Shown here piece by piece: positions 14,981-22,549 of a stretch of DNA of 64,000 nucleotides. Origin of the DNA: Enterococcaceae bacterium (GTDB taxonomy: Bacteria > Bacillota > Bacilli > Lactobacillales > Enterococcaceae); NCBI GenBank assembly GCA_022649665.1, contig JALCOL010000004.1, positions 1 to 64,000 of the forward strand, written 5' to 3'. A program made the translations under genes and the position numbers. The notes under the pieces were generated by a model that ran no database searches, was not told the origin of the DNA, and was given only the letters and a program-made list of their open reading frames with translations. How positions within the stretch are numbered: position 1 is the stretch's first letter; the number at the start of each line of letters is the position of its first letter.

Positions 14981-15000
14981 TTGCACTAATTTTAGTGCAA
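14981..15000 (+). promoter_or_regulatory. palindromic operator upstream of the catabolic operon
   Basis: Arms TTGCACTAA and TTAGTGCAA are perfectly complementary around a TT centre and extend one more G/C pair outward. The half-site TAGTGCAA recurs at 14844-14851. The palindrome lies immediately upstream of the promoter for the PRD-regulator operon, so it is probably the binding site of the operon's activator or of another sugar-responsive regulator. The remaining AT-rich stretch 14770-14980 contains nothing else I can assign. Confidence 0.7.
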
Positions 15001-15010
15001 CTATTTTGTA

Positions 15011-15038
15011 TTGTTATCATGCAAAACGGTTTTATAAT
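15011..15038 (+). promoter_or_regulatory. promoter of the PRD-SFCGS-DgaEF operon
   Basis: TTGTTA (15011-15016), 16-base spacer, TATAAT (15033-15038). The palindrome at 14981-15000 lies just upstream of the -35. Confidence 0.65.
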
Positions 15039-15060
15039 GAGATTGTAAGGGGTGATGATC

Positions 15061-16911
15061 ATGCAGCAGCTCTCCAAAAGGGAAATCAAAGTCCTTTTGC
15101 AATTGTTGGATACGGAAGAGAGTCTGACGACCAGGGAACTTGCCGAAACACACGCTGTCAGCATTCGCACTGTCAAATATGATCTTGATCACATTCGCGC
15201 TTGGCTGAAGGAACGGGACCAAATGCTCTCTAGCCGCCGAAGCAAAGGGATCTGGCTGGATCTCAGCGATTCTCGCAGGCTGGAGCTGAAAAATGAGTTG
15301 ATGGACACCGAACGTTTTGAGCTTTATCCGGATCAAAAAATGCGTCTGAGCCGCTTGTTTTTGATCCTGCTTTTGACCAACGAACATGTGACTTCGAAAG
15401 CATTGGCTGCTCAGCTCGAAGTGAGCAAAAATACCGTTTTGAGTGATTTGGATCATTTGGAAAAACATCTGCTGCGCCATCAGCTGCGGTTGGACCGCCA
15501 AAATCGCCAAGGATTTTTGATCAAAGGCCCGGAAAAAATGCTGCGCTTGGCGATGGAAAAAGTTTGTCAGAAAAATTTTACCGAATACGATATTTATCAG
15601 ATCATGGCCTGCCTGCTGAATACCGCGAAGCCGCAGCAGTATTTTGCAGCAGTCAATCACGAGTTTCAAGCGCTTTATGACGAGGTCTTGCAGGAAATGG
15701 GGAACCTGCTGGCCTGCCGGAAGCTGGAAGAATTCAATTATGCAGAGATTCTGGCGATGACGCTCCGAGTCGCGATCTCGGCGGCGCGGATGAAAAACGG
15801 TTTTACGATGGACCGCTACAAGCTCTTGGCGAATCAGGCGCTCTTGTCCGAACAAAATGAATTGCCTTTCTTATTAATGAAAGCGCTTTTCGAACGTTTT
15901 GAGCTGCCGCTTTTGGAAGACGAATATTTGTATATTTACAGCGATGCTTTTGAAAAAAACGATGAACAAGATGTTTTGCACCTGACGCGCCGCTTGATCG
16001 AAGACGTCAGCCGCGATATGGAGATGCCGTTTGTCAAAGATACTCAGCTGGCGACCAACTTGTTCGCACATTTGTCCTTGCGGCTTTCGCGCAAGCAGAA
16101 ATTCATCAATGAATACAATCCTTTCTCAGACGATATCAAAGCGAAGTATCCAAAGCTGTTTGCTGCGATCAAGCAGACGAGTGCCAAAAATATCGATGGT
16201 TCAGCGCTTTTGATCAACGATTCTTTTATTGCGTACATCGCGCTTCATTTTCTCGTTTCGTATGAAAAGCAGCAGGAAAAAGGGGCTGTTCGCGTCGTTT
16301 ACGTCTGTTCGACCGGTCTGGGGGTCACTAATCTGATCCAGCAGCGGATCAGCGAAGAAGTAAATAATATCGAGATCGCGAGTTTTGCTTCTGTTTTGAA
16401 CGCACAAGAAGTGATCGCAAAAAAAGATCCGGATCTGGTGATCAGCATTTTTCCGCTGGAAGAACGTAAACGGCCCGTCATCAAAGTCCATCCGCTGCCG
16501 ACTCCGGAAGACATGGCGCAGATCAAAGAGACAGTCAATAAAATCGCGGCGCAAGTTGGCCGCAAGCCGCGGCTCGTCCCGCGCAAGACAAACAGCGACG
16601 CACAAAGCATCGAAGCGCGAAGCCGCGACGTGATCGTCAAAGGATATGTGATCTACGAAGAGCTGAAAAAAGTATTTGAAGGCCGATTGGAACGGCATTA
16701 CCAGGAAGCCTTCCTGCTGCATGTTTTCCTGATGGTCCACCGCATCACTTTTGCTCAGCAGTATGAAAATGAAGGCAATGTAGCCGCTGATACACTGCTG
16801 GCAGAAGCGGAGCTGGTCGAAAAGATCGAAGCGCTGTTCGCCGAGAGTGAGCTGGCGATCAACCGAGCAGAGATCTCGGCATTATTGATTTATATACAGG
16901 AGGGAGCTTGA
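15061..16911 (+). CDS. BglG-family transcriptional activator with PRDs and EIIB-like domain
   Basis: About 616 residues. The N-terminal HTH regions (SLTTRELAETHAVSIRTVKYDLDHIR and VTSKALAAQLEVSKNTVLSDLDHLE) indicate DNA binding. PRD regions follow (about 180-400), then an EIIB-like domain with Cys416 in VVYVCSTGLGVTNLIQQRI, the phosphorylatable cysteine position. The last 100 residues look like another PRD (HYQEAFLLHVFLMVHRI). Such proteins sense substrate through PTS phosphorylation. No PTS permease is encoded nearby. The start is taken as ATG 15061, 8 bases after AAGGGG; the ATG at 15055 is too close. First gene of the operon, 3 bases before the next. Confidence 0.85.
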   Translation: MQQLSKREIKVLLQLLDTEESLTTRELAETHAVSIRTVKYDLDHIRAWLKERDQMLSSRRSKGIWLDLSDSRRLELKNELMDTERFELYPDQKMRLSRLFLILLLTNEHVTSKALAAQLEVSKNTVLSDLDHLEKHLLRHQLRLDRQNRQGFLIKGPEKMLRLAMEKVCQKNFTEYDIYQIMACLLNTAKPQQYFAAVNHEFQALYDEVLQEMGNLLACRKLEEFNYAEILAMTLRVAISAARMKNGFTMDRYKLLANQALLSEQNELPFLLMKALFERFELPLLEDEYLYIYSDAFEKNDEQDVLHLTRRLIEDVSRDMEMPFVKDTQLATNLFAHLSLRLSRKQKFINEYNPFSDDIKAKYPKLFAAIKQTSAKNIDGSALLINDSFIAYIALHFLVSYEKQQEKGAVRVVYVCSTGLGVTNLIQQRISEEVNNIEIASFASVLNAQEVIAKKDPDLVISIFPLEERKRPVIKVHPLPTPEDMAQIKETVNKIAAQVGRKPRLVPRKTNSDAQSIEARSRDVIVKGYVIYEELKKVFEGRLERHYQEAFLLHVFLMVHRITFAQQYENEGNVAADTLLAEAELVEKIEALFAESELAINRAEISALLIYIQEGA

Positions 16912-16914
16912 AAT

Positions 16915-17247
16915 ATGAGATTATCAGACGACGCTCAAGCCATTATTTCGAAAAGCTGCGACAAGGAAAAATTAATAGCTGTCATGAAGGCGGTCGAAGA
17001 AAAGATGGACGCTGCACAGATCACGCCAACCGAGCTGCAGTGGACGGTCTTGATCAATCATTTGAATGAAATGGTCGAACGAGCTGAGCGCGGGGAAAAA
17101 ATGAGCGGCGTCGATCCCGAGCTCTTCAGCGAAGTTTCACCAGAAGCGCTTGGAATCGCACGCGAAGTCGTAAACGAGATCGGCAACCTGACAGAGGATG
17201 AAAGTTACGTTCTATCGGTCCATTTTGAAACGGCGAAAATGAATTGA
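16915..17247 (+). CDS. small PRD-domain protein (EF_0829-type)
   Basis: A 110-residue protein made almost entirely of one PRD-like helical domain (LQWTVLINHLNEMVERAERGE, then FSEVSPEALGIAREVVNEIGN and the C-terminal SYVLSVHFETAK). It lacks a DNA-binding or RNA-binding part. The position between the activator and the SFCGS gene matches the EF_0829-type family of the E. faecalis locus. It could be a phosphorylation relay, decoy or subunit of the regulator; this is inference. AGGAGGGA precedes the ATG. Confidence 0.8.
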   Translation: MRLSDDAQAIISKSCDKEKLIAVMKAVEEKMDAAQITPTELQWTVLINHLNEMVERAERGEKMSGVDPELFSEVSPEALGIAREVVNEIGNLTEDESYVLSVHFETAKMN

Positions 17248-17273
17248 AAAACAAAAACCAGGAGGAGACCAAC

Positions 17274-17630
17274 ATGATTACAGTAGTGATTGCAGATCGG
17301 ATGGGCAAAGGACAAAATGTGGCAAAAGGCGTGGAAGCAGCCGGCGGACGAGCAGTTGTCGTTCCAGGAATGGGCGCAGATATGCGTTTGGGGGATGTAA
17401 TGCAAAAGGAGCAGGCTGACATGGGGATCTCATTTTGCGGCAGCGGCGGCGCCGGAGCGTTGACGGCAGCAACGAAATACGGCTATCCGGAGCGTCACGG
17501 GATGCGTTCCGTCGAAGAAGGGCTGACGGCGATCAAAGACGGCAAAACTGTGCTGGGCTTCGGCTTCATGGATCAAGAAGAACTAGGCAAACGGCTGACA
17601 GAAGAATTTATCAAAAAATACGGCGAATAA
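17274..17630 (+). CDS. SFCGS-family glycine-rich protein
   Basis: A 118-residue soluble protein with the family-defining SFCGSGGAGALTAATKYGY motif near residue 50, preceded by VVIADRMGKGQNVAKGVEAAGG. The small alpha/beta size and a conserved cysteine in a glycine-rich loop recall PTS EIIB proteins, but the similarity is only in general shape. CAGGAGGAG precedes ATG 17274. It belongs to the putative transporter set with DUF4312, DUF4311 and DUF4310. Mechanism unknown. Confidence 0.88.
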   Translation: MITVVIADRMGKGQNVAKGVEAAGGRAVVVPGMGADMRLGDVMQKEQADMGISFCGSGGAGALTAATKYGYPERHGMRSVEEGLTAIKDGKTVLGFGFMDQEELGKRLTEEFIKKYGE

Positions 17631-17648
17631 GCGTCAGGAGGGGACCGC

Positions 17649-18002
17649 ATGAATGCGACAGAGAACATTACCAAAACACTCATCGTCTCGGGAAAAGGAG
17701 ACACGAAGCAAAGCGCCTTTGCCAGCGCGCTGAGTACGATCCAAAAGCAAGTCATGGAAAAAAACGAAGACGTCACGCTGCAGATCACACCGGTCAGTGT
17801 TCAGGTGGTCTCCGCCAAAGCGCAAACGTATACGGAACGCTTTCTCTTCTTATTTTTGCCGCGGAAGCGGAGCGTTTACCGCGTAAAATTAGAAGTTACG
17901 GTAGCGATCACACAAATCAAAATGGATCAAATCAACTTTCTAGAAGAAACGATCAATGATCCCCAGGGAGTTGCGCTGCCGTTTTTGTCAAAAAAGGGAT
18001 AA
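17649..18002 (+). CDS. DUF4312 family protein
   Basis: A 117-residue soluble protein starting MNATENITKTLIVSGKGDTKQSAFASALSTI, with SVQVVSAKAQTYTERFLFLFLPRKRSVYRVKLEVTV in the middle. Composition suggests a single alpha/beta domain with a hydrophobic strand rather than a membrane segment. AGGAGGGG precedes the ATG; it lies 18 bases after SFCGS and 12 before the DUF4311 gene. Family members occur only in such loci as far as I know; no enzymatic motif is visible. Confidence 0.85.
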   Translation: MNATENITKTLIVSGKGDTKQSAFASALSTIQKQVMEKNEDVTLQITPVSVQVVSAKAQTYTERFLFLFLPRKRSVYRVKLEVTVAITQIKMDQINFLEETINDPQGVALPFLSKKG

Positions 18003-18014
18003 GGGGGAAATAAA

Positions 18015-18794
18015 GTGGAGTTTGTCATTATTTTAATCAAATCACTGATCATCGGCGGACTTTTGGGATTCGCTGCCGGGGCCGGGGCCGCCAGAATGTT
18101 CCATGCGCCGAGCACGCAAGGTTTAGGCGCGTTTCGGACGCTCGGGGAAATGAACGCCTGCATGGGCGACCCGGCTTCCCACTTTTCATTCGGCTTGGGA
18201 TTTTTCTTCAATGCATGGGCTTCAGCAGTCGGTGCCGGGGCATTTACGCAGGACGTGACGCACCGCGTGATCCCGAACTGGGCAGCGGCGGCACTGCTGC
18301 TCAGAAATAAAGACGTCGGCAAGACGATGCATGATCCAAAAAAAATGGGGATCGCCGGTGCGATCATCGGCGCGGTCACAGTCACATTCTTGAATTCAAC
18401 AGCGGCCGCAATCCCGCAAGCGCTCCAAGTTACCGCAGTCGCCGTACTGGTTCCTGCGGCAACGATCCTGATCAATACCGTGATGCCGGTCCTTTTTTGG
18501 CTGGCAGCGATCGATGCCGGCAAACGGACGGGTTTCTGGGGGACGCTGTTTGGCGGGATCGCACAACTTATTATGGGAAACGCCGTTCCAGGCGTCGTTT
18601 TGGGGATCTTGATCGGAAAAGGCGTCGACGAGCTGGGCTGGACGAAAGTCACGAAGATCATGATGGTCGCGATCATTCTTTTGTTCGTTTTCAGCGCATT
18701 TTTCCGCGGCTTCGATCTGCAGACGCTCGAAAGCTTCCGTTTGAATATCCCGCATTGGCTGAAGGGACTTCATGACGTCTTTACGGTGAAATAA
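18015..18794 (+). CDS. DUF4311 membrane protein
   Basis: A 259-residue integral membrane protein with about six or seven hydrophobic segments. Conserved-looking loops include GAGAARMFHAPSTQGLGAFRTLGE and GAGAFTQDVTHRVIPNWAAAALLL. The GTG start is preceded by AAGGGGG. With DUF4310 it probably forms the membrane part of an uptake system, since no other permease is in the operon. Its length and two-protein arrangement resemble split PTS IIC/IID permeases without recognisable PTS motifs. Confidence 0.88.
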   Translation: MEFVIILIKSLIIGGLLGFAAGAGAARMFHAPSTQGLGAFRTLGEMNACMGDPASHFSFGLGFFFNAWASAVGAGAFTQDVTHRVIPNWAAAALLLRNKDVGKTMHDPKKMGIAGAIIGAVTVTFLNSTAAAIPQALQVTAVAVLVPAATILINTVMPVLFWLAAIDAGKRTGFWGTLFGGIAQLIMGNAVPGVVLGILIGKGVDELGWTKVTKIMMVAIILLFVFSAFFRGFDLQTLESFRLNIPHWLKGLHDVFTVK

Positions 18795-18805
18795 GGAGGA
18801 GCACG

Positions 18806-19504
18806 ATGGAAAACAAACAAGAATGGGAACAAGAACAGACAGAAGTCTTAGAAGAAATGAAACAGAAAAGCTTTTGGTTCGCTGACTGGTCGTTTCCAAT
18901 CATCGTCGGACTGATGGCAGCGGCTGTTTTCGCCGGCACGCATATGTACGTTGTCTACGGTGTCGGCGCTTTCAATGAAGTGTCGATCGTTGCGATGCTG
19001 AAAGCGGGACTTGACGGCGGCTCATACGGGGCGGCTGCAGCATTTGGTGCGAGCTTCCTGTTTGCACGGATCTTGGAAGGTTCGCTTGTCGGGATCTTGG
19101 ACTTGGGCGGTTCGATCTTGACCGGGATCGGGATCGGGATCGGCATCCCGGCGATTTTCTTGAGTATGGGGATCACCGCGCCGATCAAAAATTTCCCGCT
19201 GGCACTTTTGACAGGTGCGATTTTGGGGCTGCTTGTCGGCGGCGTGATCATCTTGATCCGTAAATTTACGATCAACCAATCGAATTCAACATTTGGCGCA
19301 GATGTCATGATGGGCGCCGGCAACTCATCCGGCCGCTTTTTAGGGCCGCTGATCATTTTGAGTGCTTGTGCAGCTTCGATTCCGATCGGGATCGGGGCAA
19401 CGCTCGGGGCGATCGTCTTCTACCTCTGGAAAAAACCGATCGCCGGCGGAGCGATCCTCGGCGCGATGATCTTGGGCGCGATCTTCCCAGTGGCTTTGAA
19501 GTAA
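18806..19504 (+). CDS. DUF4310 membrane protein
   Basis: A 232-residue membrane protein. A charged N-terminal tail (ENKQEWEQEQTEVLEEMKQKS) precedes about six hydrophobic segments rich in glycine, including ILDLGGSILTGIGIGIGIPA and LLVGGVIILIRKF. AGGAGG precedes the ATG, 11 bases after the DUF4311 stop. Together they are the only membrane proteins of the operon. The glycine-rich helices are typical of transporters, but no known transporter family is evident. Confidence 0.88.
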   Translation: MENKQEWEQEQTEVLEEMKQKSFWFADWSFPIIVGLMAAAVFAGTHMYVVYGVGAFNEVSIVAMLKAGLDGGSYGAAAAFGASFLFARILEGSLVGILDLGGSILTGIGIGIGIPAIFLSMGITAPIKNFPLALLTGAILGLLVGGVIILIRKFTINQSNSTFGADVMMGAGNSSGRFLGPLIILSACAASIPIGIGATLGAIVFYLWKKPIAGGAILGAMILGAIFPVALK

Positions 19505-19537
19505 GCGGCCTGAAAAAGACAGAAAGCAGGGAAACAG

Positions 19538-20644
19538 ATGTATGAATTAGTGATCAAAAACGCAAAACTGATTACCGGCGAAGTGATCGAACTCGCGGTC
19601 CAAGACGGAAAGATCGCGCTGGTCGCCGGTGAAATCAACGAGCCAGCTGAAAAAGTGATCGACTTGAAAAATGACGCGTATCTTTCACCCGGCTGGATCG
19701 ATGACCATGTCCACTGCTATGAAAAAATGGAGCTGTATTATGATTTTCCCGATCAGATCGGGGCAGCGGCCGGTGTTACGACGGTGATCGATGCCGGCAG
19801 CACCGGTGCGGAAAATATCGGCGACTTTTATGCTTTAGCCCAACAAGTGAAAACAAATGTCTTCGCACTCTTGAATATCTCCAAAGAAGGGATCGTCGCG
19901 CAGGATGAATTGGCGGACCTTGCACAGGTCAATAGTGATTTAGTCAAAGAAGCGCTCGAAAAATATCCAGACTTTATCGTTGGGATCAAAGCCCGCATGA
20001 GCAAGACGGTGATCGGCAATAACGGGATCACGCCGCTGACGCTTGCCAAAACGATCCAGCGGGAAAACGGCGGATTGCCGCTGATGGTCCATATCGGCTC
20101 GGCACCGCCGGAATTGGCAGAAGTTCTGGATCTTTTGGAGCAGGGGGACGTTTTGACCCACTGCTTCAACGGCAAAGCGAACGGGATCCTGGACCGGGCA
20201 AGCGGCAAGATCAAAGAGTTCATCTGGCCGGCTTATCAAAAAGGCATTGTATTTGATATCGGTCACGGGACCGACAGTTTTAATTTCGATGTCGCAGAAA
20301 CAGCACGCAAAGAAGGACTGCGATCAACGTCGATCAGTACCGATATTTATCACCGCAACCGTGAAAACGGACCAGTCTATGATTTGGCGACGACGATGGA
20401 AAAGCTGAATGTGATCGGTTATTCGTGGGAAGAGATCATCGATCAAGTCACGCGGGTCCCCGCGCAGAATTTTAATTTGGCGCGCAAAGGGCGGATCGAG
20501 ACAAGGTTTGATGCGGATCTGACGCTCTTCCGGCTGGAAGAAGACGAAAAACTGCTTACTGATTCAAACGGCAATACGCGGACGACACAGACGCAGATCG
20601 TGCCATTCAAAACGATCATAGGAGGAGTGGTATATGACAATTAG
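19538..20644 (+). CDS. amidohydrolase/deacetylase-family metallohydrolase (EF_0837-type)
   Basis: A 368-residue TIM-barrel amidohydrolase. Metal ligands are visible: HVH in GWIDDHVHCYE, a likely carboxylated lysine in VGIKARMS, the histidine in LMVHIGSAPPE, the histidine in LTHCFNGKANG, and DIGHGTDSFNF. It is related to N-acetyl-amino-acid or N-acetylglucosamine-phosphate deacetylase-like enzymes. In this operon it would open or deacylate an N-substituted substrate before the lyase step (inference). Its stop overlaps the dgaE-like start by 11 bases. Confidence 0.88.
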   Translation: MYELVIKNAKLITGEVIELAVQDGKIALVAGEINEPAEKVIDLKNDAYLSPGWIDDHVHCYEKMELYYDFPDQIGAAAGVTTVIDAGSTGAENIGDFYALAQQVKTNVFALLNISKEGIVAQDELADLAQVNSDLVKEALEKYPDFIVGIKARMSKTVIGNNGITPLTLAKTIQRENGGLPLMVHIGSAPPELAEVLDLLEQGDVLTHCFNGKANGILDRASGKIKEFIWPAYQKGIVFDIGHGTDSFNFDVAETARKEGLRSTSISTDIYHRNRENGPVYDLATTMEKLNVIGYSWEEIIDQVTRVPAQNFNLARKGRIETRFDADLTLFRLEEDEKLLTDSNGNTRTTQTQIVPFKTIIGGVVYDN

Positions 20645-21734
20645 TTTGGAAAAGTTCGGCCTGCGGGAAGTGATCAATGCCTCGGGACGCATGACGATCT
20701 TGGGCGTTTCCAAAGTTTCAGAGAGCGTCTTAGCGGCGCAAAAATTCGGCGGTCAGCATTTTTTTGAAATGAGCGAACTCAGCATTCAGACCGGAAAGTA
20801 TTTGGCGAATTTGCTGCATGTCGATGATGTGCAGATCGTCGCTTCTGCTTCAGCGGGGATCGCCCAAAGTGTCGCAGCAGTGATCGGTCGCGGTAGTTTG
20901 TTCCATACGTATCACCCATATACGAAACGCATCACCAAGCGTGAAATCATTTTGCCGAAAGGGCACAATGTCGATTATGGGACTGCCGTCGAGATCATGG
21001 TCGCTGAAGGCGGCGGCCAAGTCGTCGAAGCCGGGTACGCCAATATGTGCACACCGGAGCATATCGAAATGATGATCACCGACGAGACGGCCGCGGTGCT
21101 TTATATCAAGAGCCACCATACTGTCCAAAAGTCGATGCTGACTGTCCAAGAAGCCGCTGAAGCAGCTCATCGCCATCAGCTGCCGCTGATCGTCGACGCT
21201 GCGGCTGAAGAAGATTTGTGCAAATATAGCGAAATGGGCGCGGATTTGGTGATCTACAGCGGCGCCAAAGCGATCGAAGGCCCGAGCGCCGGAATGGTGA
21301 TCGGCAAAAAAGAACTGATCGAGTGGGTCCGCCTTCAAAGCAAAGGGATCGGCCGCGCGATGAAGATCGGCAAAGACAATATTCTAGGATTTACACAAGC
21401 CGTCGAAGATTATCTCGCGCATGGCCCAGAAGCGGGGAGTGCGATGCTGGAGCGCTTGACACCGTTTGTTGCGGCGCTGAACGAGATCGATCATTTGAAA
21501 GCGCAAGCTGTTCAAGATAGTGCAGGCCGGGCGATCTACCGGGCAAGTGTTCGTGTAAGCGGCGTGAAAAGCGCGAAAGAAGTGATCCGCCAGTTGAAAG
21601 AAAAAAGCCCGGCGATCTACACGCGCGAATATCAAGCGAACAACGGGATCATCGAGTTCGATATTCGTTCGCTCGATCAAGAAGAGATGGATAAAATCGT
21701 GCGGCGCCTGAAAGAAATCATGGAGGAAGATTAG
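20634..21734 (+). CDS. DgaE-family PLP-dependent ammonia lyase
   Basis: A 366-residue fold-type I PLP enzyme. The likely Schiff-base lysine is in VIYSGAKAIEGPSAG; the cofactor region has LIVDAAAEEDL and HHTVQKSMLTVQEAAEAAH. In Salmonella, DgaE converts glucosaminate-6-phosphate to 2-keto-3-deoxy-6-phosphogluconate plus ammonia. The same reaction or a close relative is expected here, given the aldolase gene directly downstream. AGGAGTGG precedes the ATG. Confidence 0.9.
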   Translation: MTISLEKFGLREVINASGRMTILGVSKVSESVLAAQKFGGQHFFEMSELSIQTGKYLANLLHVDDVQIVASASAGIAQSVAAVIGRGSLFHTYHPYTKRITKREIILPKGHNVDYGTAVEIMVAEGGGQVVEAGYANMCTPEHIEMMITDETAAVLYIKSHHTVQKSMLTVQEAAEAAHRHQLPLIVDAAAEEDLCKYSEMGADLVIYSGAKAIEGPSAGMVIGKKELIEWVRLQSKGIGRAMKIGKDNILGFTQAVEDYLAHGPEAGSAMLERLTPFVAALNEIDHLKAQAVQDSAGRAIYRASVRVSGVKSAKEVIRQLKEKSPAIYTREYQANNGIIEFDIRSLDQEEMDKIVRRLKEIMEED

Positions 21735-21735
21735 T

Positions 21736-22488
21736 ATGCAGCTGACACCTAATTATTTACAAGACCGGATCTGCCTGAATGTTTTGGCAAATTCCGTTGA
21801 AAATGCTCAAGAATGCTACGAAGCCGCTGAGGGACATGTCGTTTTAGGGGTTTTGTCGAAAAACTACTCCAGCGATGAAGCAGCGATCAAAGCGATGAAA
21901 AAATATCAAGCAGCAACGAACAATGCCTTGTCGGTCGGACTTGGAGCAGGCGATCCGAATCAAAGCCAAATGGTTTCACGGATCTCCGCGGTCCTCCAGC
22001 CGCAGCACGTCAATCAAGTGTTTACCGGGGTCGGAACTTCCCGCGCGCTTTTGGGACAAAGCGAGACGATCGTGAATGGACTCGTTTCACCGACCGGAAA
22101 AGTCGGAGTCGTCAATATCGCGACCGGTCCGCTGAGCGCACTCGCCCCAGCGGCTGAAGTACCGATCGAAACCGCGATCAAGATGCTGCAAGACATGGGC
22201 GGCAGCTCGCTGAAATATTTCCCGATGAAAGGCTTGGCGCATAAAGCAGAGTATCAAGCAGTTGCTGAGGCGTGTGCAAAATTTGATTTTTATCTTGAAC
22301 CGACTGGCGGGATCGACTTGGACAATTTTGAAGAGATCATTGCGATCGCGATCCGCGCGGGCGTTAAAAAAGTGATCCCGCATGTGTACAGCTCGATCAT
22401 CGACAAAGCAACCGGCGATACAAAACCGGAAGACGTACAAAAATTATTGACACTGATGAAAAAAGCGGTAGTAAGCATCGAGAAATAA
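21736..22488 (+). CDS. DgaF-family 2-keto-3-deoxy-6-phosphogluconate aldolase
   Basis: A 250-residue aldolase (EF_0839-type). It would cleave 2-keto-3-deoxy-6-phosphogluconate into pyruvate and glyceraldehyde-3-phosphate, feeding the lower glycolysis encoded at the left of this window. Recognisable parts are NALSVGLGAGDPNQSQM, FTGVGTSRALLG, MGGSSLKYFPMKG (with a lysine suitable as the Schiff base) and EPTGGIDLDNFEEI. One base after the dgaE-like stop; last gene before a strong terminator. Confidence 0.9.
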   Translation: MQLTPNYLQDRICLNVLANSVENAQECYEAAEGHVVLGVLSKNYSSDEAAIKAMKKYQAATNNALSVGLGAGDPNQSQMVSRISAVLQPQHVNQVFTGVGTSRALLGQSETIVNGLVSPTGKVGVVNIATGPLSALAPAAEVPIETAIKMLQDMGGSSLKYFPMKGLAHKAEYQAVAEACAKFDFYLEPTGGIDLDNFEEIIAIAIRAGVKKVIPHVYSSIIDKATGDTKPEDVQKLLTLMKKAVVSIEK

Positions 22489-22505
22489 GGAAAGCTGCTT
22501 CTATT

Positions 22506-22549
22506 CGCAAAAAAGGACAGCGGCAAATTTGCCGCTGTCCTTTTTTGCG
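22506..22549 (+). terminator. terminator of the catabolic operon
   Basis: A perfect 44-base palindrome: arms GGACAGCGGCAAA / TTTGCCGCTGTCC flanked by A and T runs. It could act on both strands. Confidence 0.95.

Follow-up and report, generated by a model that had tools for sequence, protein, structure and literature searches.

A conserved five-protein module beside dga-type enzymes as a candidate PTS-linked uptake system for N-acetylated amino-sugar acids

We analysed a stretch of 64,000 nucleotides from an Enterococcaceae bacterium (positions 1 to 64,000 of JALCOL010000004.1, contig C4 of a 26-contig genome totalling 2.37 Mb; hereafter the window). It contains an operon of nine plus-strand open reading frames (15052–22488) that runs from a transcription regulator to the aldolase DgaF. 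Five of the products form what we call the module: a stand-alone protein with a phosphotransferase system (PTS) regulation domain (PRD), an SFCGS protein, a DUF4312 protein and the membrane proteins DUF4311 and DUF4310. We consider it quite probable that the module serves uptake and that its substrate belongs to the N-acetylated amino-sugar acids. Tentatively, and with somewhat less than even confidence, we read it as a PTS-coupled uptake system for an amino-sugar acid that is built from non-PTS parts. The acid would most likely be N-acetylglucosaminic acid (GlcNAc1A), the oxidised end left on chitin by lytic polysaccharide monooxygenases (LPMOs). That the substrate is phosphorylated through the PRD and SFCGS proteins is possible, if short of probable.

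The initial annotation of this region placed SFCGS, DUF4312, DUF4311 and DUF4310 between a PTS-type regulator and DgaE/DgaF-like enzymes, and all of these families were matched far above cut-off. Its statement that the operon lacks a PTS component also stands, no EII model being among the Pfam and NCBIfam matches listed for the operon's proteins (E ≤ 1, in some cases limited to the 25 best matches). In NCBIfam, the cluster EF_0829 to EF_0839 is described as hypothetical families only, and a search of the open-licence literature turned up no study dealing with the four families or with transport by them. EF0839 and EF0838 are mentioned there, and transposon-insertion sequencing suggests that EF0839 may add to fitness; in the accessible portions of the papers found to mention EF0839, none of EF0829–EF0833 is named.

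The gene set recurred as a cluster in 77 loci at 76 distinct places and is, therefore, no chance arrangement. This set comprised 72 loci from one scan of genome contigs and five further loci. The 72 loci came mainly from Enterococcus, Vagococcus, Lactococcus, lactobacilli, Xenorhabdus, Serratia and Aliivibrio, with one from Streptomyces; the hosts are enterococci, lactic acid bacteria, insect-associated and marine enterobacteria, vibrios and a single Streptomyces. According to a six-frame profile search, DUF4311 was present in 77 loci (by construction of the set), DUF4310 in 77, DUF4312 in 75, SFCGS in 73 and the PRD protein in 72. Except in Lactococcus raffinolactis (L030), the misses were contigs that start inside the module: this applied to four of the five loci without the PRD protein, the fifth being L030, which lacks SFCGS too. 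The Streptomyces PRD protein (L075) was missed by BLAST and found by profile. Among sampled genomes, DUF4311 scored above cut-off in 7 of 398 from the window's phylum, its own genome included. In three other samples, each counting its own centre genome, it did so in 1 of 13 (class of genome G159), 1 of 396 (the Streptomyces phylum) and 12 of 398 (phylum of genome G412). Matches in E. coli and in G204, G275, G301 and G684 fell below cut-off, and those in G204 and G275 were taken for chance on reading the stretches concerned.

The catabolic enzymes accompany the module in most of these loci, the amidohydrolase and DgaE in 72 of 77 and DgaF in 57 of 77, some contigs ending early. Three loci (L013, L021 and L031, the last identical to L085) carry the module with no amidohydrolase, DgaE or DgaF within 18 kb, so that either its function is separable from the DgaE/DgaF pathway or the enzymes are encoded elsewhere. 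L039 ends directly after DUF4310 and is uninformative in this respect. In L030 (7442–9000), the PRD and SFCGS genes have been lost and the regulator is shortened; this copy is probably decaying.

A transporter of two small soluble and two membrane proteins had been proposed in the initial annotation. The four families do form a conserved module; the count left out the stand-alone PRD protein. The PRD and SFCGS genes adjoin on one strand in all 72 loci that hold both, at most 110 bases apart in 71 of them and 270 in L037. His49 of the PRD protein was conserved in 72 of 73 sequences, the other having a gap at this position, and His103 in 73 of 73. Together with Cys55 of SFCGS, these are the conserved His or Cys residues of the soluble parts that could carry phosphate. 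PRDs are classical targets of histidine phosphorylation by HPr and EIIB. With two conserved histidines and a gene next to that of SFCGS, and once in frame with it, the PRD protein is the better phosphocarrier candidate as far as sequence can tell. The in-frame case is genome G274 (L086 8602–10383), whose PRD reading frame runs into SFCGS with no stop between the two. An AGGAGG precedes an internal ATG of this frame, so free SFCGS may also be made.

SFCGS itself had been suggested to be an EIIB-like cysteine protein. We rejected this identity: predicted fold and, more weakly, sequence group SFCGS with the RpiB/LacAB isomerases, which provided the top matches, and no EIIB was among the best 50 matches of either fold search. 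The joined model of SFCGS and DUF4312, generated from 40 sequences, had a mean pLDDT of 86.6 and a pTM of 0.49, indicating that the two domains are modelled well and their mutual placement is not. When the SFCGS model was searched with Foldseek, the first 41 matches were RpiB, LacAB or relatives (best E 2.2e-5). In VIA, SFCGS matched RpiB with a Z score of 12.6 (rmsd 2.5, 113 residues), and the first other fold scored 8.3.

The sequence support for this grouping was modest. The Pfam model LacAB_rpiB (PF02502) matched the SFCGS gene of genome G055 at E 7.1e-5 and the window SFCGS only at 0.23. A profile of 31 RpiB sequences run against a set of 74 sequences matched SFCGS members with a best E of 3.3e-5 and aligned the RpiB cysteine on Cys55. 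According to hhalign, the RpiB profile matched SFCGS with Prob 17.6 (E 0.0014) and YhfU of E. coli with Prob 56 (E 1.1e-4). Against PDB sequences, the SFCGS–DUF4312 profile retrieved no RpiB at E ≤ 10 and RsfS at 0.33 only, and phmmer with SFCGS found no homologue, returning two chance rows (E 1.2 and 1.4). YhfU, a DUF2620 protein, is related to SFCGS itself (hhalign Prob 91, E 1.1e-6).

Cys55 was invariant in all 74 SFCGS sequences and follows the third strand of the model. In a joint alignment with RpiB, the loop C66-G67-T68-G69 appeared as C-G-S-G in eight of eight SFCGS sequences and Asp9 was kept in six of the eight, whereas His99, Asn100, Arg133 and Arg137 were missing from all eight. 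In RpiB, His99 is the ring-opening residue and Arg133/Arg137 constitute the phosphate-binding tail. On its predicted fold, SFCGS is an RpiB scaffold that retains the catalytic cysteine and the Gly-Ser/Thr-Gly loop but is shorter (118 versus 149 residues) and devoid of the ring-opening histidine and phosphate-binding tail. In the YhfU family, the loop cysteine was kept in 12 of 12 sequences, and His99 and Arg133/Arg137 were missing from the same number.

DUF4312 was modelled as strand–helix–strand–strand with long strands. This is the arrangement of dodecins, which it matched in VIA with Z scores of 7.2–7.4 over 65–67 of 66–68 residues, below the clear range (Z < 8). It differs from them in a long extra hydrophobic hairpin, and no dodecin model was among the Pfam matches listed for it (E ≤ 1). 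A dodecin-like structure is suggested, though not secure. The hairpin contains a conserved hydrophobic stretch, E-x-F-L-F-F-F-x-P-R, that we read as a membrane or partner contact. The window protein contains neither cysteine nor histidine, and neither is conserved in 75 sequences; DUF4312 is therefore no phosphocarrier of the EIIA type. The joined model of DUF4311 and DUF4310 (L029) was helical, with a pLDDT of 71 and a pTM of 0.66. Compared with the folds of PTS components, as the initial annotation had envisaged, SFCGS went to RpiB/LacAB instead, and this moderate model of the membrane pair gave no useful match: no solved fold was found at E ≤ 0.001, and the best VIA Z score was 4.4 over 47 residues, which does not prove a new fold. 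The invariant polar residues of DUF4311 include Arg27, Arg41, Glu45, Asp52, His56, Asp80, His83 and Arg84, and DUF4310 too holds many.

The substrate class is indicated by the enzymes. DgaE scored 552.5 bits against the subfamily model TIGR01437 (cut-off 385.3) and 348.1 bits, below the cut-off of 600, against the equivalog for glucosaminate-6-phosphate ammonia-lyase (DGL). It keeps the His162/163 pair, and its Arg303, 331 and 345 correspond to Arg301, 332 and 346 of DGL, a triad conserved in 66 of 66 aligned sequences. In the accessible text of Phillips et al. (PMC9529869), manual docking puts these three DGL residues near the substrate phosphate and Arg226 near the carboxylate; the position of Arg226 is occupied by lysine in the window DgaE and by arginine in 10 of the 66. 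Lys-217 of that text was not used, as there is no lysine at this index of the PDB chain. The conservation of the arginine triad indicates that the DgaE substrate is probably 6-phosphorylated. The amidohydrolase, a proposed N-acetylglucosaminate deacetylase, precedes this DgaE-type lyase, which suggests an N-acylated substrate.

Further indications came from inserted genes. In 18 of the 77 loci, the amidohydrolase gene is immediately preceded, at a distance of 16 to 46 bases, by a gene of the glycoside hydrolase family 170 (GH170) type (tblastn). In L011 (10636–13481), the GH170 gene comprises Pfam MupG_N and MupG_C and is accompanied by an EIIC gene of the lactose/cellobiose family; a similar EIIC gene accompanies GH170 in 17 of the 18 loci. 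Growth of Lacticaseibacillus on N,N'-diacetylchitobiose depends on ChbE, which is a GH170 protein, and on a cellobiose-type EIIC, according to the accessible part of the source (PMC12791066). In the ong pathway of Pseudoalteromonas, as described in excerpts of its report (PMC9537276), GlcNAc1A from LPMO-cut chitin is imported by the sodium symporter OngIT, deacetylated, deaminated, phosphorylated at the stage of 2-keto-3-deoxygluconate (KDG) and split, as the authors suppose. Taken together, the enzymes, the GH170/EIIC inserts, ChbE and the ong pathway make GlcNAc1A the likely substrate by analogy; a mannose-PTS-type dga set near one module operon, described below, was counted among this evidence. 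By similar analogy, the branch with GH170 and EIIC likely takes up the oxidised disaccharide GlcNAc-GlcNAc1A, and the GH170 hydrolases may act on the 6-phosphate of oxidised chitobiose. Beside the GH170 gene of L026 (12007–12291), as well as L030, L032 and L077, a small protein of ~94 residues is encoded, for which the L026 copy gave no match in Pfam at E ≤ 0.001 or in NCBIfam at E ≤ 1e-5.

We then considered where a kinase is encoded. The window operon contains no kinase gene according to its open reading frames and the family matches listed. A PfkB gene nearest to KDG kinases, though below the equivalog cut-offs in the three plus two copies scanned, was present in 15 of 77 loci: it occurred in 14 of the 18 that have GH170 and in 1 of the 59 that lack it (Fisher p 5e-11). 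When the count was limited to loci that have DgaF followed by 1.1 kb or more of visible sequence, 55 remained and the figures were 14 of 17 and 1 of 38 (p 2e-9). Both p values overstate the association because related loci are not independent. The PfkB gene follows DgaF in Enterococcus and Brochothrix; in Lactococcus, L030 and L032 have it between the genes for DgaE and DgaF. The kinase is thus seen where GH170 would release the acid without a phosphate, but hardly at all where no route other than the module is visible. Since the kinase tracks GH170 and DgaE keeps its arginine triad, uptake through the module may itself phosphorylate the substrate.

A link of the module to the PTS is likely in view of the conserved PRD histidines, the PTS-type regulator and, in one genome, HPr and enzyme I (EI) genes downstream. 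In this genome, G159 (L166 11683–14840), the operon is followed on the same strand by a haloacid dehalogenase-type phosphatase gene, ~310 bases, and genes for HPr and EI (TIGR01417); further EI-type and HPr genes occur in G159. EI was found in 34 of 36 module-bearing genomes tested, the other two holding PTS EIIC genes, and HPr in 10 of 12; of the two genomes without EI and HPr, one is a fragmented assembly. Genome G412 (L049), with neither EI nor HPr, was considered as a case of PTS independence and dropped, for it yielded 6 GTP_EFTU matches against 12 in its relative G427 and holds three PTS EIIC genes. A gap in this fragmented assembly is the most likely reason for the missing genes; EI was absent from 8 of 18 genomes of the G412 family, G412 included. 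G424 was likewise rejected as a PTS-free genome, since it contains one EIIC gene while having no EI or HPr.

Companilactobacillus jidongensis (L060 12699–18708) provides the mannose-type set mentioned above. It comprises a second DgaE/DgaF pair, divergent genes for mannose-type EIIA and EIIB, and a regulator resembling DagR, which at 538.7 bits stays under the equivalog cut-off of 1400. Two phosphatase-like genes and ~1.5 kb separate the set from the module operon, and the locus ends before any EIIC or EIID gene. This arrangement suggests that the same enzymes can be supplied by either kind of uptake. It agrees with the view that the module occupies the place taken by a PTS permease in other dga-type operons, as the initial annotation had noted for that of Salmonella.

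From the gene set, the predicted SFCGS fold, the conserved residues and the gene neighbourhoods, which are direct results, we infer transport, substrate and phosphotransfer as follows. DUF4311 and DUF4310 would form the membrane path, and DUF4312 would be an oligomeric, dodecin-like cytoplasmic adaptor that meets the membrane via its hydrophobic hairpin. Phosphorylated HPr would phosphorylate a histidine of the PRD protein, which would transfer this group to SFCGS at Cys55, a residue of its glycine-rich loop, and SFCGS would phosphorylate the incoming sugar acid at O6. Inside the cell, the amidohydrolase would take off acetate. To judge from their families, DgaE would then remove ammonia and water to yield KDG-6-phosphate (KDPG), and DgaF would convert this to pyruvate and glyceraldehyde-3-phosphate, steps described for glucosaminate in Salmonella in the accessible text of PMC9529869. 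Such a system might represent group translocation that evolved independently of the PTS permeases, from EI/HPr to the PRD protein in the role of EIIA and SFCGS in that of EIIB, with an unrelated two-subunit channel and a dodecin-like adaptor, and with YhfY–YhfU–YhfT of E. coli as a second, simpler member. We regard this broader proposal as possible, though less likely than not.

The yhf operon of E. coli (L094 5936–13345) resembles the module in that a PRD protein (YhfY), a Cys-loop protein (YhfU) and a membrane protein (YhfT) are encoded in one gene row, with YhfS as well. Among the YhfT loci of the phylum sample, a YhfU relative was present in 11 of 11 and a YhfY relative in 10 of 11. By contrast with the module, there is no DUF4312 and YhfT is one protein of 434 residues; YhfY of E. 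coli lacks the second PRD histidine. No kinase is found among the annotated yhf genes, and no DgaF in the annotated operon. A relationship of DUF4311/DUF4310 to YhfT seemed likely by eye and was abandoned when neither hhalign nor hmmsearch --max gave a significant match. By its design, the YhfY–YhfU–YhfT set of E. coli K-12 appears to be a second such system with fewer parts.

Two catabolic systems offer further comparison. The dga operon of Salmonella, which serves D-glucosaminate through the PTS DgaABCD, has in common with the window operon DgaF and a DgaE-family lyase with the arginine triad and histidine pair, as far as the accessible text shows (PMC9529869). The window operon differs in having the five module proteins in place of the mannose-family permease, an additional amidohydrolase, and a DgaE at 348 bits against the DGL equivalog cut-off of 600. 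The ong pathway (OngIT, OngB, OngC, KdgK) follows the same logical order of deacetylase, pyridoxal phosphate-dependent deaminase, KDG kinase (seen here in 15 of the 77 loci) and KDPG aldolase, according to excerpts of PMC9537276. Its transporter, a sodium solute symporter, and its deacetylase, of the D-aminoacylase type, belong to families other than those found here.

Several points weigh against phosphorylating uptake of GlcNAc1A by the module. The conserved cysteine of RpiB is a proton-transferring base and not a phosphocarrier. In addition, no PTS EIIA, EIIB, EIIC or EIID model was among the listed matches of any module protein, and no likeness of DUF4311 or DUF4310 to EIIC or EIID was found by profile matches or among the best 50 fold-search matches. 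The PRD–SFCGS fusion is weakened by an internal in-frame TAG in the DUF4311 gene of G274, whose sequence suggests that this copy of the module may be decaying. The EI counts come from lineages in which the PTS is common anyway. As for the kinase, GH170 occurs without it in L020, L026, L077 and L037 (the last locus ends early), and in Brochothrix L051 the kinase occurs without GH170. By our own estimate, made without a tree, the pattern rests on about three gains. Kinases may also be encoded elsewhere in the genomes, the search having covered the loci only, and kinase-bearing loci have the arginine triad too, so the triad may be no sure report of phosphorylation at uptake. The assignment of GlcNAc1A as likely substrate is argued by analogy, and a study of chitin use in Aeromonas could not confirm a GlcNAc1A route there, according to the accessible part of its text (PMC11653859).

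In a strong rival reading, DUF4311/DUF4310 would be an ion-coupled transporter that does not phosphorylate, and the PRD and SFCGS proteins would be cytoplasmic gates for regulation by the PTS. Deacetylation and deamination would act on the unphosphorylated acid, and a KDG kinase encoded in the operon or elsewhere would make KDPG later, as happens in the ong pathway. We regard this as a serious possibility that falls short of being probable. PRDs usually regulate rather than carry phosphate to a substrate. The KDG-kinase-like gene stands beside or within the operon in those 15 loci, including the two Lactococcus loci with the kinase between DgaE and DgaF and Brochothrix L051, and the ong pathway needs no phosphorylation before KDG in the excerpts of PMC9537276. 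Set against this, no such kinase was seen in 62 of the 77 loci (some of the stretches end early), the kinase tracks GH170 (14 of 17 versus 1 of 38 among the 55 loci), and DgaE keeps the arginine triad in 66 of 66 sequences.

That SFCGS is instead an isomerase or C2 epimerase with a cysteine base, held at the membrane by DUF4312, with DUF4311/DUF4310 exporting a product such as acetate or acting as an anchor, appears unlikely to us. The retained Cys66-Gly-Ser-Gly loop of RpiB and Asp9 (six of eight) would fit such an enzyme, as would the persistence of DUF4311/DUF4310 in the 18 loci with the GH170 route, 17 of them with EIIC. However, His99, Asn100, Arg133 and Arg137 of RpiB are missing from all eight SFCGS sequences, and in three distinct places (L013, L021, L031 = L085) the module is present while the stretch covered contains no amidohydrolase, DgaE or DgaF. 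We consider it very improbable that the module is a highly diverged classical PTS, as the initial annotation had suggested, with SFCGS a true homologue of EIIB and DUF4311/DUF4310 of EIIC/EIID. The number of parts and the position in the operon are those of a mannose-type PTS, and SFCGS has an invariant cysteine, but this residue comes after the third strand of a predicted RpiB/LacAB fold, a grouping also indicated by the PF02502 match of the G055 protein. Moreover, the window DUF4312 has no histidine or cysteine, and EIIC/EIID likeness was not found. On the preferred reading the module is PTS-like in working, yet by the tests made it is a member of no PTS permease family.

If PTS-coupled uptake by the module is correct, transport with phosphorylation of the sugar would have a further form, one that bears no relationship to the known PTS permeases. 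It would also give a role to isolated PRD-domain proteins and to E. coli YhfYUT, and account for the import of oxidised chitin ends, a step otherwise missing in these bacteria. The reading lends itself to direct testing, as it names a likely substrate and two or three residues open to point mutation, and the comparisons show which proteins to address first.

The regulator that heads the operon has the EIIB-like Cys416 reported in the initial annotation: it is residue 419 counted from the GTG at 15052 and 416 from the ATG at 15061. Cys419 was invariant in 43 of 43 aligned regulators, the window's included, as were H340, H399 and H557. Position 14981, at which the annotated region began, is the first base of a perfect palindrome (Table 1). 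The pattern TTGCAC-N4..12-GTGCAA has this single match in the 64-kb window (0.03 expected), and of 43 loci scanned, 36 had such a palindrome close to where the regulator begins, or 35 with a stricter flank. The exact N6 form was found once each in 30 of 169 loci scanned. We consider the palindrome the probable operator of the regulator, judging by its pattern and placement. It lies just before a promoter-like site and could serve for mapping regulons; sigma-70-like sites numbered 12 in the region against 7.9 expected. The regulator would sense PTS phosphorylation via its PRDs and EIIB-like cysteine and act at this palindrome.

Table 1. Features of the operon and its upstream region, in window positions.
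Feature	Position	Strand	Basis and remarks
Perfect palindrome TTGCACT-N6-AGTGCAA	14981..15000	+	Probable operator of regulator; candidate, sequence pattern
Sigma-70-like promoter TTGTTA-16-TATAAT	15011..15038	+	Consensus scan, 10/12 matched; consensus only
PRD/EIIB-type transcription regulator	15052..16911	+	GTG start at 15052, ATG alternative 15061; helix-turn-helix, Mga and PRD domains
Single PRD-domain protein, EF_0829 family, 110 residues	16915..17247	+	TIGR03582 E 2.5e-38; proposed phosphocarrier
SFCGS protein, EF_0830 family	17274..17630	+	PF14272 E 1.6e-61; predicted RpiB/LacAB-like fold
DUF4312 protein, EF_0831 family	17649..18002	+	PF14189 E 1.1e-32; suggestively dodecin-like, hydrophobic FLFFFLPR-type hairpin
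DUF4311 integral membrane protein, EF_0832 family	18015..18794	+	PF14188 E 2.4e-114; 5 hydropathy segments
DUF4310 integral membrane protein, EF_0833 family	18806..19504	+	PF14187 E 1.8e-101; 5 hydropathy segments
EF_0837-type amidohydrolase	19538..20644	+	TIGR03583 E 3.7e-165; PDB 2ICS relative E 3.9e-167
DgaE-family PLP (pyridoxal phosphate) ammonia-lyase	20634..21734	+	TIGR01437 E 3.6e-166
DgaF, 2-keto-3-deoxy-6-phosphogluconate aldolase	21736..22488	+	NF047796 E 9.8e-117, 388.8 bits (cut-off 300); PDB 3M0Z E 1.8e-106

Two further observations concern the enzymes of other loci and the remainder of the window's genome. Nine Xenorhabdus loci (L054, L055, L058, L059, L063, L071, L074, L076 and L081) encode DgaE and have no DgaF in the 5 to 6 kb beyond, so that their aldolase must lie elsewhere or differ. 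In the genome of the window, four LacAB_rpiB matches occur as two tandem pairs on contigs C1 and C3, and these are probably LacA/LacB.

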